From NCBI GenBank assembly GCA_021785035.1, contig JAJYGP010000071.1:1-64000 (forward strand): 64,000 nucleotides of DNA, written 5' to 3'. The translations under genes were made by a program, and so were the position numbers. The notes below the pieces were generated by a model. It made no database searches. It saw nothing but the letters and a program-made list of their open reading frames with translations, and was not told the origin of the DNA. Positions 27,710 through 49,472 of this stretch are shown here, one piece after another. The DNA is from Pseudomonadota bacterium. GTDB taxonomy: Bacteria > Pseudomonadota > Gammaproteobacteria > Acidiferrobacterales > Acidiferrobacteraceae. Position 1 is the first letter of the stretch; every line of letters starts with the position of its first letter.

Positions 27710-30413
<2,704 letters not shown>

Positions 30414-31463
30414 TCAGGAGGCGTTGCTGCGACTTTGTTCCACGTGGAACACAGAGGCCGAAGAAGCGGGGGTCTCGACATCAAGAGCCGTCACGAAGGC
30501 CTGTGACCCTGCGGCCACCAAGACTTCGTAAAAGGCCTTTTGGCGCACGCCATCGAGCTCCGCCGCGAGATCATCAACCAACAAAACCGGTGGTCTGCCC
30601 GCTTGCTCGGCACATAGGGCAAGCGCCAGGCGCCAAGCACTTACGACCACCTTCTGCTGACCATGGGAGCCCACTTGGGTAAGGGGGTGGTCGGCCAGCA
30701 CAAATTGAATGTCAGCTCTATGGGGACCAACTTGCGTATAACCCAACCGTTCGTCCCCCTCCTCAGACCGCAACAAAGCGGTCTCTAACGAGTCTTCGCC
30801 CCAGCCGGGGCGCAGCCTCATGGCCACCGGCCATTGTAACTGTAGGCGCTCCGCCAGCTCTTGAAAGGGGGCCTGTAATCGGTCCTGAGCGCGCAGCCAA
30901 AAATTCGCCAAGGTCTCGCCGGTTTGAGCAAGGCCTGGGTTAAACATACGATACAACCCCCGCCCCTCGCGCAAGGCCGCGTTCCGTTGCCGCAGCACCC
31001 GCTGATAGCGTCGCCAGGTCTCCAAAAACAAAGGTTCCACGTGGAACAATAGCCACGACATGGCTGCCCGTCGTACCTGGGCGTCTTGAAGCGTGGCGTA
31101 GTGGGTTTCCGGGCTAAACACGAGAACGGGAAGTCGCTCATAAGCCGTCACCGCCGACTTAAGAGGTTCCCCATCCAATCGCCAAGACCGCAGCACACGC
31201 CCCCGCTCGTAGCGCAATTCGCCCGCATAAAGCGATTCGCCGAATTTTAAACCGACCAGAAGTCGCTCGGCACCATGTCGAATAGCACCCCGTGCACTCC
31301 CGGGGCGCAAAGCCTTACTGGTCGCGGCTAAAGTAATGGCCTCCAAAAGACTGGTTTTCCCGGCCCCATTTCGCCCAACAATCAGATTAAGGCCTGCCGC
31401 CGGCTGCCAGCTCAGTTGCCCTAAGCTCCGAAGATTTTCGACCTCTAAGTTGGTAATAGCCAC
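30414..31463 (-). CDS. recF: DNA replication and repair protein RecF
   Basis: A 349-residue SMC-like ATPase that loads RecA at gaps with RecO and RecR. Walker A is IVGRNGAGKTSLLEAITLA (about residues 28-46). The signature motif lies near VGSHGQQKVVVSAWRLAL, and Walker B is LLVDDLAAELDGVR. It starts 1 base before the end of the dnaN frame spacing, so coupled. The most striking thing is the peptide FHVE, which occurs twice (positions encoded by 31034-31047 and 30436-30451). Each is the translation of a ParB-binding palindrome, see the parS entries. The C-terminal one lies in a poorly conserved tail. Confidence 0.97.
   Translation of the reverse strand: MAITNLEVENLRSLGQLSWQPAAGLNLIVGRNGAGKTSLLEAITLAATSKALRPGSARGAIRHGAERLLVGLKFGESLYAGELRYERGRVLRSWRLDGEPLKSAVTAYERLPVLVFSPETHYATLQDAQVRRAAMSWLLFHVEPLFLETWRRYQRVLRQRNAALREGRGLYRMFNPGLAQTGETLANFWLRAQDRLQAPFQELAERLQLQWPVAMRLRPGWGEDSLETALLRSEEGDERLGYTQVGPHRADIQFVLADHPLTQVGSHGQQKVVVSAWRLALALCAEQAGRPPVLLVDDLAAELDGVRQKAFYEVLVAAGSQAFVTALDVETPASSASVFHVEQSRSNAS
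30436..30451. promoter_or_regulatory. parS centromere site 1 (inside recF)
   Basis: TGTTCCACGTGGAACA is a perfect 16-bp palindrome and matches the ParB-binding parS consensus of the gammaproteobacterial type known from Pseudomonas. It is within the last 30 codons of recF and reads V-F-H-V-E-Q. ParB (48630) would nucleate here and spread. Position about 2.3 kb from the putative origin fits. Confidence 0.92.
31034..31047. promoter_or_regulatory. parS centromere site 2 (inside recF)
   Basis: GTTCCACGTGGAAC is a 14-bp perfect palindrome with the same core as site 1, about 590 bases away. Here the outer base on one side (G33) is not paired with the flanking A. It is in the middle of recF and reads F-H-V-E in frame. 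Two close copies near the origin are normal for chromosomal parS clusters. Confidence 0.88.
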
Positions 31464-31464
31464 G

Positions 31465-32568
31465 CTACAAACGCATGGGCATTACCACATACACTTGGCT
31501 ACCCACGTCGCCCGAGGACCGAATCCGACAACCGCTATTGCTATCATTCCAGCCAAACTCTACCTGTGGTCCGCTTAAAGCCCCTAACGCCTCAATCACA
31601 TACCCAACGTTAAAACCCACCTCAAACTCCGGTAGCGTGGCCTCCACATCCAGTTCTTCTGTTGCCTCGTCATGCTCGGGATTGCTGGCACTTGCAACCA
31701 CCAACTGACCAGTGAACTGAAGCCTAATACCCCGAAACTTCTCGGTCGATACAATCCCCACCCGACTTAACATCTCGCGCAAAGACTCGCGCGGCAAAAC
31801 CACCGTTTCCCGCACGCTAGCCGGGACCACTCGGTTATAATCAGGGAACCGCCCATCAATTAATTTTGAGGTAAATACAAGTTGATCCTGCCGCACCCGG
31901 ATATGGTTAGTCGACAGGTTAATCTCCACAGGTCCTTCGTCGCTCCCCAGTAAGCGCCCCAGCTCCGCCACCCCTTTACGCGGCACTATAACTTGTTTCT
32001 CCGTGAGATCCTGACCCTCGATAAACACAGTACACATCGCAAGCCTGTGTCCATCCGCCGCTACCGCCTTTAAACTCCCTGGTAAAGTCTCAAACATCAA
32101 TCCGTTCAAGTAATAGCGCACATCCTGTTGAGCCATACAAAACTGGGTCTTATCGATAAGCTTCTTTAAATCCGACCGCGCGATCATAAAACCCATGTCC
32201 CACTGGAATTCCTTAAGGCTCGGAAAATCCTCGACCGGTAACGTGCTTAAGGTAAACCGACTCCGCCCCGCACTGATACGCACCCGATCCTGCTCTTTCT
32301 GGCAACGAACCGTACTGCCCGCGGGGAGGGTGCGCACTATATCCAAAAACTTCCGTCCGGGAACAGTCACGGCCCCTTGTTCTCCCACCTCGGCCATCGC
32401 CTTCGAGACCATCTCGATCTCGAGATCTGTTCCCGTGAAAGTCACTGCGTCCTTATCACAGGTCACCAATACATGAGACAAAATAGGTTTTGACTGGCGT
32501 TTCTCTACGACTCCCGCCGCCAAACCCAAAGCCTTTAGAAGCTCGTCTCTTGGCATCGACCATTGCAT
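31465..32568 (-). CDS. dnaN: DNA polymerase III beta sliding clamp
   Basis: A 367-residue beta clamp, the usual length. It begins MQWSMPRDELLKALGLAAGVV and carries TFTGTDLEIEMVSKAM, RRYYLNGLMFE-like text (here VRYYLNGLMFET) and the C-terminal end YVVMPMRL. The clamp encircles DNA and tethers the polymerase III core and many other replication factors. It is downstream of the putative origin and coupled to recF with a 1-base gap. No oddity seen. Confidence 0.98.
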   Translation of the reverse strand: MQWSMPRDELLKALGLAAGVVEKRQSKPILSHVLVTCDKDAVTFTGTDLEIEMVSKAMAEVGEQGAVTVPGRKFLDIVRTLPAGSTVRCQKEQDRVRISAGRSRFTLSTLPVEDFPSLKEFQWDMGFMIARSDLKKLIDKTQFCMAQQDVRYYLNGLMFETLPGSLKAVAADGHRLAMCTVFIEGQDLTEKQVIVPRKGVAELGRLLGSDEGPVEINLSTNHIRVRQDQLVFTSKLIDGRFPDYNRVVPASVRETVVLPRESLREMLSRVGIVSTEKFRGIRLQFTGQLVVASASNPEHDEATEELDVEATLPEFEVGFNVGYVIEALGALSGPQVEFGWNDSNSGCRIRSSGDVGSQVYVVMPMRL

Positions 32569-32808: not shown

Positions 32809-34164
32809 TTATGTCGTCAGTATCCGAGTTAAATTCGCGTAGTCCTCTTTAATCCGTGGATCGGTCTCTATCAGCTCGCTTACCTTACGACAGGCATGAA
32901 TCACGGTCGAATGATCACGGCCCCCGAATTCCTTTCCAATCTCGGGAAGGCTGTGATGGGTCAGTTCTTTTGCCAAGGCCATCGCGATTTGGCGCGGTCT
33001 TGTCACTTGCCGCGAGCGACTCTTAGCACTCAAATCCGAAACACGTATTTTAAAATATTCAGCCACCATCTTTTGAATATTGGTGATTGTCACCAGCCGT
33101 TCCTGAAATGCCAGAAGATCTTTCAGGCTCTCGGCGGCTAAAGCGATATCGATAGGGCGGCCCGTGAAGTTAGCGCTCGCTATCACTCGCCGAAGCGCAC
33201 CCTCCAACTCCCGTACGTTTGAACGGACTCGTTTTGCAATAAAAAACGCTACCTCATCACCTAAAACGATACCTTCTTGTTGTGTCTTTTTAATCAAAAT
33301 CGCCACCCGGGTTTCGAGCTCGGGGGGTTCTATCGAGACCGTAAGGCCCGACCCAAATCGCGAGACCAAGCGCTCCTCGACGCCAACAAACTCTTTAGGG
33401 AAGCGGTCCGCGGTAATAATGACTTGGCGCTGACCTTCCAGTAGGGCGTTAAAGGTGTGAAAAAACTCCTCTTGGGAGCGTTCCTTGCCGGCGAAAAATT
33501 GAATATCGTCGATCAATAAGGCGTCGAGCGAACGGTAATACTTTTTAAAATCGTTGATGGCGTTGTGCTGTAGAGCCTTCACCATGTCCGCGACGAAGCG
33601 CTCGGAATGAATATAAGCCACCTTCGCATCACGCTTATGGGTTACGAGCAAATTTCCGGCGGCCTGCATAAGGTGGGTTTTACCAAGACCGACACCGCCA
33701 TAAATAAAAAGCGGGTTATACGCACCGCCGGGGTTCTCACCGACTTGGCGCGCGGCGGCCCGCGCCAATTGATTCGATTTGCCCTCGATATGGGTTTCAA
33801 ACGTAAAGTCGGGATTGAGCCGCGACCCTGGGGTGGCGGGCTCGCGACGCGTCATATTCCCGCCACTCATCCCGGTCCCGTTGACTGCTTTTTTGGCACC
33901 CGTCTCCTTGGCCGCATAGCTCCCGACCTGGACTGTGACCGTAATCGCGGCGGTTCCCCCCTGATATTGCGCGGCAAGTTCTGCTATCCGATCAACGAAG
34001 CGATCCTTGACCCATTCGGTCACAAAGCGGTTGGGGGCAAGAAGCCGCAGGCAATTTTTCTCCCACTCCGCCTGTAATGGCCGAATCCAGGTATTGAACT
34101 GTTGCGCCGAAAGCTCCTCTTCGAGCCGATCTAAGCATTTCTTCCAAATAACGGGTTGGCTCAC
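32809..34164 (-). CDS. dnaA: Chromosomal replication initiator DnaA
   Basis: A 451-residue DnaA. Domain I is at the N terminus ([20 protein letters not shown]), then a short linker. The AAA+ domain starts at [15 protein letters not shown] with Walker [16 protein letters not shown] and Walker [14 protein letters not shown]. The C-terminal DNA-binding domain has [20 protein letters not shown] and the DnaA signature [14 protein letters not shown]. Length and layout are normal. It lies between two DnaA-box-bearing gaps, and its promoter is probably in the dnaA-rpmH gap, where a box at 34217 could provide autoregulation. Confidence 0.98.
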
Positions 34165-47200: not shown

Positions 47201-47854
47201 ATGGAAGTACTCGATGCCGCCTCATGGCGCCGCGCCGCGCTTCGTTTAGAGGAGGGCAGTCAAGCGCTCGGCCTGTCCTTGGACGCCGAGGTTCGCCTGC
47301 GGCTCATGACCTACCTCGAGATCATGGGCCGTTGGAACCGGGTGTTTAACCTCACCGCCATTCGCGATCCCGAGGAGATGGTAACGCGCCACGTGTTAGA
47401 CAGCCTCGCGGTTTTCCCGCACCTCCCGGCGGGGACGGTCTTAGATGTGGGCAGCGGCGCGGGTCTCCCCGGTATCCCGCTCGCCCTGGTCGCACCCGAG
47501 CGCGGCGTGACCTTGTTGGACCGGTCCCATAAGCGGATCGACTTTCTTACCGAGGTGGCGGCCCAATTGCGGCTTTCAAACGTGGAGCTCGTGTGCCAGC
47601 GCGTCGAGGACCATAAGCCCGCCGCGCCCTATGACGTGGTCATGGCACGGGCCTTCGCGAGCCTCTACGACATCGTTATGGCCACCGATCATCTCTTGGC
47701 CCCGCAGGGTGTCGTGGTTGCCATGAAGGGCGCGTTTCCGAGCGAAGAGCTCGCCACGATCGTCCCCCCTTATCGGGTCGAGGCGGTCCACGCCCTTTTC
47801 GTGCCCGGTCTGTCAGCGAAACGCCACCTCGTCGTCTTGGCGCGCCACGCATGA
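47201..47854 (+). CDS. rsmG: 16S rRNA (guanine-N7)-methyltransferase
   Basis: A 217-residue RsmG (GidB) that methylates G527 of 16S rRNA. The motif LDVGSGAGLPGIPLALVAPE is motif I at about residue 80. RWNRVFNLTAIRDPEEMVTRH is the N-terminal family block. It follows mnmG by 1 base and overlaps parA with ATGA. Loss of this enzyme gives low-level streptomycin resistance in several bacteria. No oddities seen. Confidence 0.96.
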   Translation: MEVLDAASWRRAALRLEEGSQALGLSLDAEVRLRLMTYLEIMGRWNRVFNLTAIRDPEEMVTRHVLDSLAVFPHLPAGTVLDVGSGAGLPGIPLALVAPERGVTLLDRSHKRIDFLTEVAAQLRLSNVELVCQRVEDHKPAAPYDVVMARAFASLYDIVMATDHLLAPQGVVVAMKGAFPSEELATIVPPYRVEAVHALFVPGLSAKRHLVVLARHA

Positions 47855-48633
47855 CGCGCATTATCGCGGTAGCCAATCAAAAGGGCGGCGTGGGCAAAAC
47901 CACGACCAGCATCAATCTTGCGGCCTCCCTTGGCGAGCAGGGCCGGCGGGTGCTTTTGATTGATCTCGATCCCCAGGGTAATGCCACGATGGGGAGCGGG
48001 GTGACCGAGACCGAGGCGGGGGTCTATGATGTCTTGCTCGCGGATGCCGAAGCCGCGAGCGCCACCGTACACCTTTCCTGCGGCTACGACCTCTTGGCGG
48101 CCCACGCGGATCTCTCCGGCGCCGAACTGGAGTTGGCCTCGGTAGCACAGCGCGAAAGGCGGCTTGCCCTGGCTTTGCAGCCGCTGCACGATGCCTACGA
48201 TTATATTTATATCGATTGTCCCCCGGCGCTCAGTCTGCTCACCGTCAATGCCCTGGTGGCGGCCCACGCGGTCCTGATTCCCATGCAGTGTGAGTACTAC
48301 GCACTCGAGGGCTTGACCGCCCTGCTTGCCACCATCCGGCGGGTGCGCTCCTCGTTCAACGCCGGGCTCATGATCGAGGGCCTATTGCGGACCATGTTCG
48401 ATGTCCGCAATAGCCTGGCAGTCGAGGTGTCGGACCAACTCGTGCGCCATTTCGGCGCGCAGCTCTTTCAGACCGTCATCCCGCGTAACGTGCGCTTGGC
48501 GGAGGCCCCGAGCCACGGCCAGCCCGTGCTTCAGTACGATCGGGCATCGAAGGGGGCCCAGGCCTATCTGGCTCTGGCTGGCGAAATTTTGGCGCGGGAA
48601 TCGCCCTATCCCCGAGGAGATATTGGTTCATGA
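47851..48633 (+). CDS. parA: Chromosome partitioning ATPase ParA/Soj
   Basis: A 260-residue ParA/Soj. The deviant Walker A is NQKGGVGKTTTSINLAASL, with DLDPQGNATMGSG (Walker A') next and YIYIDCPPALSLLTVNAL (Walker B). ParA binds the nucleoid and its ATP cycle, driven by ParB at parS, moves origins apart. The ATG overlaps the rsmG stop and parB starts at its stop, so rsmG-parA-parB is one coupled run. The two parS sites are in recF, about 17 kb away. Confidence 0.97.
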   Translation: MTRIIAVANQKGGVGKTTTSINLAASLGEQGRRVLLIDLDPQGNATMGSGVTETEAGVYDVLLADAEAASATVHLSCGYDLLAAHADLSGAELELASVAQRERRLALALQPLHDAYDYIYIDCPPALSLLTVNALVAAHAVLIPMQCEYYALEGLTALLATIRRVRSSFNAGLMIEGLLRTMFDVRNSLAVEVSDQLVRHFGAQLFQTVIPRNVRLAEAPSHGQPVLQYDRASKGAQAYLALAGEILARESPYPRGDIGS

Positions 48634-49472
48634 AAGAGAAAAAGCCGCGTCTTGGACGCGGACTCGACGCGCTCTTCGGCGATCAAGCTCCGGCCAGTCC
48701 GGCCGCCGAAATTTTTAGGGTCCTGCCGCTAGAGCGATTGCAGCGCGGCCGTTATCAACCGCGCACCCACATGGCCCCCGAGGCCTTGAACGAACTGGCC
48801 GAATCGATACGGGCCCAGGGGGTGGTGCAGCCGATTCTCGTGCGGCCGCTCAAGGAGGGCTTCGAAATCATCGCGGGCGAGCGCCGGTGGCGAGCGGCGC
48901 AGATCGCCGGTCTAAGCGAGGTCCCGGTTATCGTGCGGGACATCCCCGATCAGGCGGCCATGGCCGTGGCTTTGATCGAGAACATCCAGCGTGAAGGATT
49001 GAGCCCGATCGAAGAGGCCGCGGGCCTCAAGCGTCTACAGGATGAGTTCCACCTGACCCACCAGGAGATCGCTACCCATATCGGCCGGTCGCGGACCGCG
49101 GTGACTAATCTTTTACGGCTCCTGGGTCTTGAGGGCGAGGTGCGCGAGCTGCTCGAAAAGGGGCAGCTCGAGATGGGGCACGCCCGCGCCTTGCTCACCC
49201 TACCGCGTGCCGCTCAGCTGGCTCTGGCGCGGGACATCGTGGCTCGTGGCTTGACTGTGCGCGAGACCGAGCGCCGCGTCCAGCAGCATGACCGCGGCCC
49301 AGCGCCGAAGCTAGCCACGGCGGACCCAGATGTTGTGGCCCTGGAGCAGCGCCTGAGTGAGACGCTCGGGGCCCGGGTCCGTATCCAGGCCAAACGCACG
49401 GGCGCTGGGCGCATTACCATCGACTATCATAGTATGGACGAGCTTGAAGGATTGCTCGGCCGGATTTCCTAG
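48630..49472 (+). CDS. parB: Chromosome partitioning protein ParB
   Basis: A 280-residue ParB/Spo0J. It begins with the basic N terminus RLGRGLDALFGDQ, the ParA-contact region. The CTPase/box region has IIAGERRWRAAQIAGL and ALIENIQREGLSPIEEA. The HTH is in LTHQEIATHIGRSRTAVTNLL, and the C-terminal dimer part ends near LEGLLGRIS. It binds parS, clamps and spreads over DNA with CTP. Overlaps parA by 4 bases. Confidence 0.97.
   Translation: MKEKKPRLGRGLDALFGDQAPASPAAEIFRVLPLERLQRGRYQPRTHMAPEALNELAESIRAQGVVQPILVRPLKEGFEIIAGERRWRAAQIAGLSEVPVIVRDIPDQAAMAVALIENIQREGLSPIEEAAGLKRLQDEFHLTHQEIATHIGRSRTAVTNLLRLLGLEGEVRELLEKGQLEMGHARALLTLPRAAQLALARDIVARGLTVRETERRVQQHDRGPAPKLATADPDVVALEQRLSETLGARVRIQAKRTGAGRITIDYHSMDELEGLLGRIS

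Follow-up and report, generated by a model that had tools for sequence, protein, structure and literature searches.

The window, as we call the whole 64,000-nucleotide stretch of DNA analysed here, contains the gene order dnaA-dnaN-recF-gyrB, as expected for recF, together with a parA-parB gene pair (Table 1). The exact 14-mer GTTCCACGTGGAAC occurs at 30437-30450 and again at 31034-31047, both times within recF, and the two palindromes are spaced by 597 nt, that is, 199 codons. A first-pass annotation of this DNA had described near-identical palindromes in recF, and this description holds, the 14-mers being exact copies that are both read in frame as FHVE. We refer to the C-terminal copy as site C and to the middle copy as site M. 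Against the 16 bp parS consensus TGTTNCACGTGNAACA, site C matches at 16/16 positions and site M at 15/16, the last base of the latter, C, being the commonest alternative at M (71/177).

Table 1. Genes and putative parS sites of the origin region and the parAB locus in the window
Feature	Position	Strand	Evidence and remarks
gyrB, downstream of recF	27951..30368	minus	NF011501 and TIGR01059
recF, host of both sites	30414..31463	minus	TIGR00611, 271 bits (cut-off 172)
parS site C	30436..30451	minus	TGTTCCACGTGGAACA, read FHVE, RecF residues 339-342; exact palindrome at the aligned site in 167/224 recF-bearing Gammaproteobacteria
parS site M	31033..31048	minus	TGTTCCACGTGGAACC on the minus strand, read FHVE, RecF residues 140-143; exact palindrome at the aligned site in 177/224
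dnaN	31465..32568	minus	TIGR00663
dnaA, origin-region marker	32809..34164	minus	TIGR00362
parA	47851..48633	plus	ParA-type ATPase, directly upstream of parB
parB, predicted binder of both sites	48630..49472	plus	TIGR00180, 190 bits (cut-off 58)

The parA and parB genes are located 17 kb from the recF palindromes and adjoin mnmG-rsmG. The presence of a parB gene in the window, already claimed in the first-pass annotation, is confirmed by the profile match in Table 1, and relatives of this ParB were detected in 34 of 37 genomes searched. An assignment to Noc and its binding site (NBS) was considered and rejected, given that the protein reached only 212 bits against TIGR04285 (cut-off 315) and passed TIGR00180 (parB_part) instead.

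Elsewhere in the window, no further match to GTTCCACGTGGAAC with up to two mismatches was found; shuffled versions of the window gave a mean of 0.19 such matches. The scan of the whole 2.28 Mb assembly that the annotation had proposed yielded three exact copies, of which two lie in the dnaN-gyrB interval, and no copy with one mismatch. Copies with 2–3 mismatches were at background level (76 versus 75 for a reversed-pattern control), and the control had no exact copy in the genome. The third exact copy is found on a 5.8 kb contig (C52:1033-1046), near a YgjP-like gene. In a congeneric genome whose RecF is 57% identical, the palindromes occupy the same two positions, and the congeneric genome G185 contains only the two recF copies. 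Sequence, number of copies, closeness to the origin and the parA and parB genes in the vicinity all fit the proposed match to the parS of Pseudomonas.

In Pseudomonas aeruginosa, recF harbours the parS sites nearest to the origin (PMC3909081), and parS1 and parS2 have been described as intragenic, in this same gene (PMC5521831). ParB binding and a role in segregation were shown for the origin-near sites, one of parS1-4 being necessary and sufficient for segregation, and the recF sites were disabled by mutations that preserve the amino acid sequence (PMC4368675). This species resembles the window in having the same palindrome, both copies in recF and near the origin, and parAB nearby (PMC3909081, PMC5521831), but differs in that it has ten parS sites, four of them origin-near (PMC4368675), whereas three exact copies, including the recF pair, are present in the window genome. 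Other Pseudomonas genomes carry the sites at the same two positions, read as FHVEP and FHVE(H/Q)G. Xanthomonas citri likewise has the same palindrome beside the origin, although its reported parS is at the 3' end of dnaN, and recF is not mentioned in the text of that paper (PMC3937727). In a related Xanthomonas (L352), both recF sites are present. Vibrio chromosome I has a ParABS system with the same parS core sequence; unlike the window, Vibrio variabilis has a one-base change at site C (TGTTTCATGTGGAACA) and has lost site M. Considering that parS1 and parS2 were already reported in recF of P. aeruginosa, a recF location of parS is in itself no novelty and the window locus is a further case of a known arrangement, while the comparison across the class goes beyond what was known.

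For this comparison, 276 Gammaproteobacteria genomes, one per species, evenly drawn and not fully independent, were searched for recF and GTTYCACGTGRAAC. The modal parS count was two per genome, and the reversed control was almost always zero. The recF region was taken from the 224 recF-bearing genomes and the RecF proteins were aligned. At least one parS was found inside recF in 196 of these genomes, with an exact palindrome at M in 177, at C in 167 and at both in 150. Of the 431 parS sites detected in the 224 genomes, 349 fall within recF, and all except four of these (345) use one frame, FHV(E/K). When a single genome per family was considered (n=115), M was present in 94, C in 89, both in 80 and at least one site in recF in 104. 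No parS was detected in the recF genes of 14 genomes from other classes of the phylum. The arrangement of a parS pair in recF is common to most sampled Gammaproteobacteria. In a RecF tree built with the site columns masked, which is noisy, both sites were reconstructed at the root, followed by many losses, and the arrangement may thus date back to the base of most Gammaproteobacteria. A statement of the class-wide location of parS in recF was not found in the searchable literature, whose reach does not extend to the 2007 parS survey (PMC2168934).

The relationship between palindrome and protein was analysed at the codon level. At M, FHVE or FHVK is encoded in 182 genomes, and in 177 of these by the exact palindrome, against a prediction of about 1.4 from the codon usage of the individual genes; the remaining five differ from the palindrome by a single base. 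At C, the corresponding figures are 167 of 175 motif genomes versus 1.5. In genomes without the palindrome at M, Phe stays and the rest varies (FYLD, FYRE, FHSE, FYAQ, FQTN and others), and the suggestion that an alignment of relatives would show FHVE conserved only where the DNA palindrome is proved clearly right at this site. FHVK, encoded at M in 26 genomes, occurs together with the GTGAAAC form of parS. Of 150 genomes, 92 have the same parS sub-type at both sites, versus 57 expected after shuffling, a statistic that ignores kinship. Some constraints belong to the protein itself, as the Val and the following Gly of the C site are partly intrinsic to RecF. Family f158, probably the Enterobacteriaceae, which is without any parS, shows FHN(E/T) at the middle position and F(T/R)VE at the C-terminal one. 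Furthermore, FHVE outlasts the DNA site via synonymous codons at M in some Pseudomonas and at C in Vibrio variabilis, which indicates that RecF tolerates or mildly favours FHVE and loses it slowly.

Since parS is written in recF codons, part of the RecF sequence is dictated by a segregation signal. The claim, made from the sequence of the window alone, that a centromere partly shapes RecF is supported by the codon test, by the change from Glu to Lys that follows the parS sub-types, by matched changes at the two sites and by the survival of parS after recF loss. Overall, the data suggest that it is the DNA signal that shapes the RecF protein, not the reverse.

In a confident predicted model of RecF (pLDDT 90.6), M covers the end of a helix (128-142, the next being 146-166) and the loop that follows, and C falls in the final strand (337-340), a part modelled with lower confidence. 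The initial placement of one site in a helical middle region and of the other in a poorly conserved C-terminal tail needs minor correction: in the model M spans a helix end and loop, and C occupies the last beta strand and not a featureless tail. Almost all RecFs of Gammaproteobacteria have the Phe at M, and RecF relatives with a solved structure exist.

Genomes that have lost recF separate the constraints on DNA and on protein and provide a natural experiment. In 21 recF-less genomes, 34 exact palindromes were found in 3,845 bp of dnaN-gyrB gaps, where only about 0.00006 would be expected, and the genomes with gap parS include two from the window's own order (G071 and G274). Intermediates were also identified. 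Where M is lost and C is kept, a second site lies just past the recF stop codon in 7 of 17 genomes, compared with 7 of the 150 genomes that have both (Fisher p 7e-5, which ignores kinship), and G114, in which recF is present, has two sites 38 bp apart, the same spacing as in the recF-less G071. The persistence of parS in recF-less genomes, along with these intermediates, indicates that the centromere is independent of recF. A search for recF remnants in the dnaN-gyrB gaps revealed no clear relic, only weak matches (E about 1e-4), some of them over the palindrome, and no recF was seen in the 865-bp gap of G174. In G093, an apparent decaying recF, of which only the C-terminal part matches, is located between dnaN and gyrB (L086, 521-1483), and the gap contains a parS-like site with one mismatch. 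The recF-less G100 has about 15 parS-like palindromes, 12 of them exact, spaced by 43 bp just upstream of gyrB (L093, 813-1428).

As a rule, parS is regarded as almost invariant. Ten genomes that have recF but no canonical parS carry a near-parS sequence in recF, and a ParB relative was detected in eight of them. The same altered sequence is often present at both recF sites: TGTTCCACATGGAACA, read as FHME, in G022; TGTTTCATATGAAACA, read as FHMK, in G084; TGTTCCACGTAGAACA in G148; and a CATGTG form in G162. G003 has one asymmetric sequence at both sites, in opposite orientations, while G029 combines TGTTCTACGTAGAACA (FYVE) at one site with TGTTCCACGTAGAACA at the other. Genome searches with a relaxed pattern returned only the two recF copies in G022, G148, G162, G003 and G029, and two further copies, of another form, in G084. 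Within genus g28, the two sites of G155 and G249, which are without detectable ParB, no longer match each other, whereas G025 has ParB and two canonical sites, which suggests that the sites decayed after ParB loss; the ParB-less G222 has no parS. In the other variant lineages, the altered palindromes suggest that the preference of ParB may have shifted. Taken together, these observations slightly favour a scenario in which the centromere pair goes back to the base of most Gammaproteobacteria and persists beyond recF, and in which natural changes of ParB preference in several ParB-bearing lineages shifted both sites together (CACATG, CATATG or ACGTAG cores) and thereby rewrote the FHVE of RecF to FHME, FHMK or FYVE.

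In its putative DNA-reading region, ParB has GHAK in place of GHAR in four of the seven aligned variant-parS genomes (G148, locus L288; G196, L295; G029, L301; and G022, L284) and, among genomes with canonical sites, only in G014 (L294), a genus-mate of G148. As a tracker of variant palindromes this change was rejected, considering the small number of cases and that G014, with canonical sites, has GHAK too.

We therefore regard it as highly probable that the recF palindromes are a functional and ancient pair of ParB-loading sites, the main chromosomal parS, and that they constrain RecF rather than the reverse. The alternative that FHVE is a protein motif needed for RecF function, with the palindrome as a by-product, would agree with the conservation of Phe at both positions beyond the palindrome and with FHVE being written in different codons in some Vibrio and Pseudomonas. 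However, agreement of the codons with the palindrome is about 100-fold above the prediction from codon use, palindrome-less genomes are without His-Val-Glu, and Glu is replaced by Lys, of opposite charge, in 26 genomes exactly as the parS sub-types predict; this alternative is largely refuted by the recF-less genomes, which keep the palindromes, and appears very unlikely. The location of the sites in an operon-like cluster of replication genes might instead point to another binding protein, a regulator of dnaN-recF-gyrB transcription, but the sites have the exact parS consensus, their counterparts in P. aeruginosa recF function as ParB sites (PMC4368675, PMC5521831), and among ParB-less genomes, G155 and G249, which share a genus, have decayed sites and G222 has none, leaving such a regulator with very little probability. 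No point was found to support chance or an assembly artefact, which is hardly credible given the expectation of 0.19 matches with up to two mismatches in the window, the absence of exact copies of the reversed control from the genome and the same two positions in the congeneric genome at 57% RecF identity.

According to the favoured explanation, that of a ParB-loading pair constraining RecF, ParB would load at both recF sites of this bacterium and then spread along the adjacent DNA, and ParA and ParB together would separate newly copied origin regions. We propose that the pair lies in recF because it was already present there in the ancestor of most sampled Gammaproteobacteria, each site having been fitted onto a RecF position that needs Phe, at a helix end and in the last strand, with tolerant residues next to it. 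Given the required Phe and the tolerance of the following residues, selection on DNA would fix His-Val-Glu/Lys at both places. Upon ParB loss, the sites would decay and RecF would drift; upon recF loss, the sites would remain in the dnaN-gyrB gap; and with a shift in ParB preference, both sites would take the same new palindrome and the RecF residues would follow.

A segregation signal in codons, at the same two places across a class and outliving the gene, provides a clear example of a protein shaped by a DNA signal. The ParB-less genomes show RecF freed from the parS constraint, and the altered palindromes point to lineages in which ParB specificity may have changed in nature. Counting against the favoured explanation, eight recF-bearing genomes with a ParB relative have neither canonical parS nor a recF site (G141, G239, G228, G231, G269, G045, G168 and G257). 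In five of these (G141, G239, G228, G269 and G231; loci L292, L293, L290, L283 and L300), the ParB relative is clear, yet canonical parS is absent from the whole genome. CACATG-type sites are located on the recF contig of G141, G239 and G269, outside recF, the nearest about 2.5 kb away.
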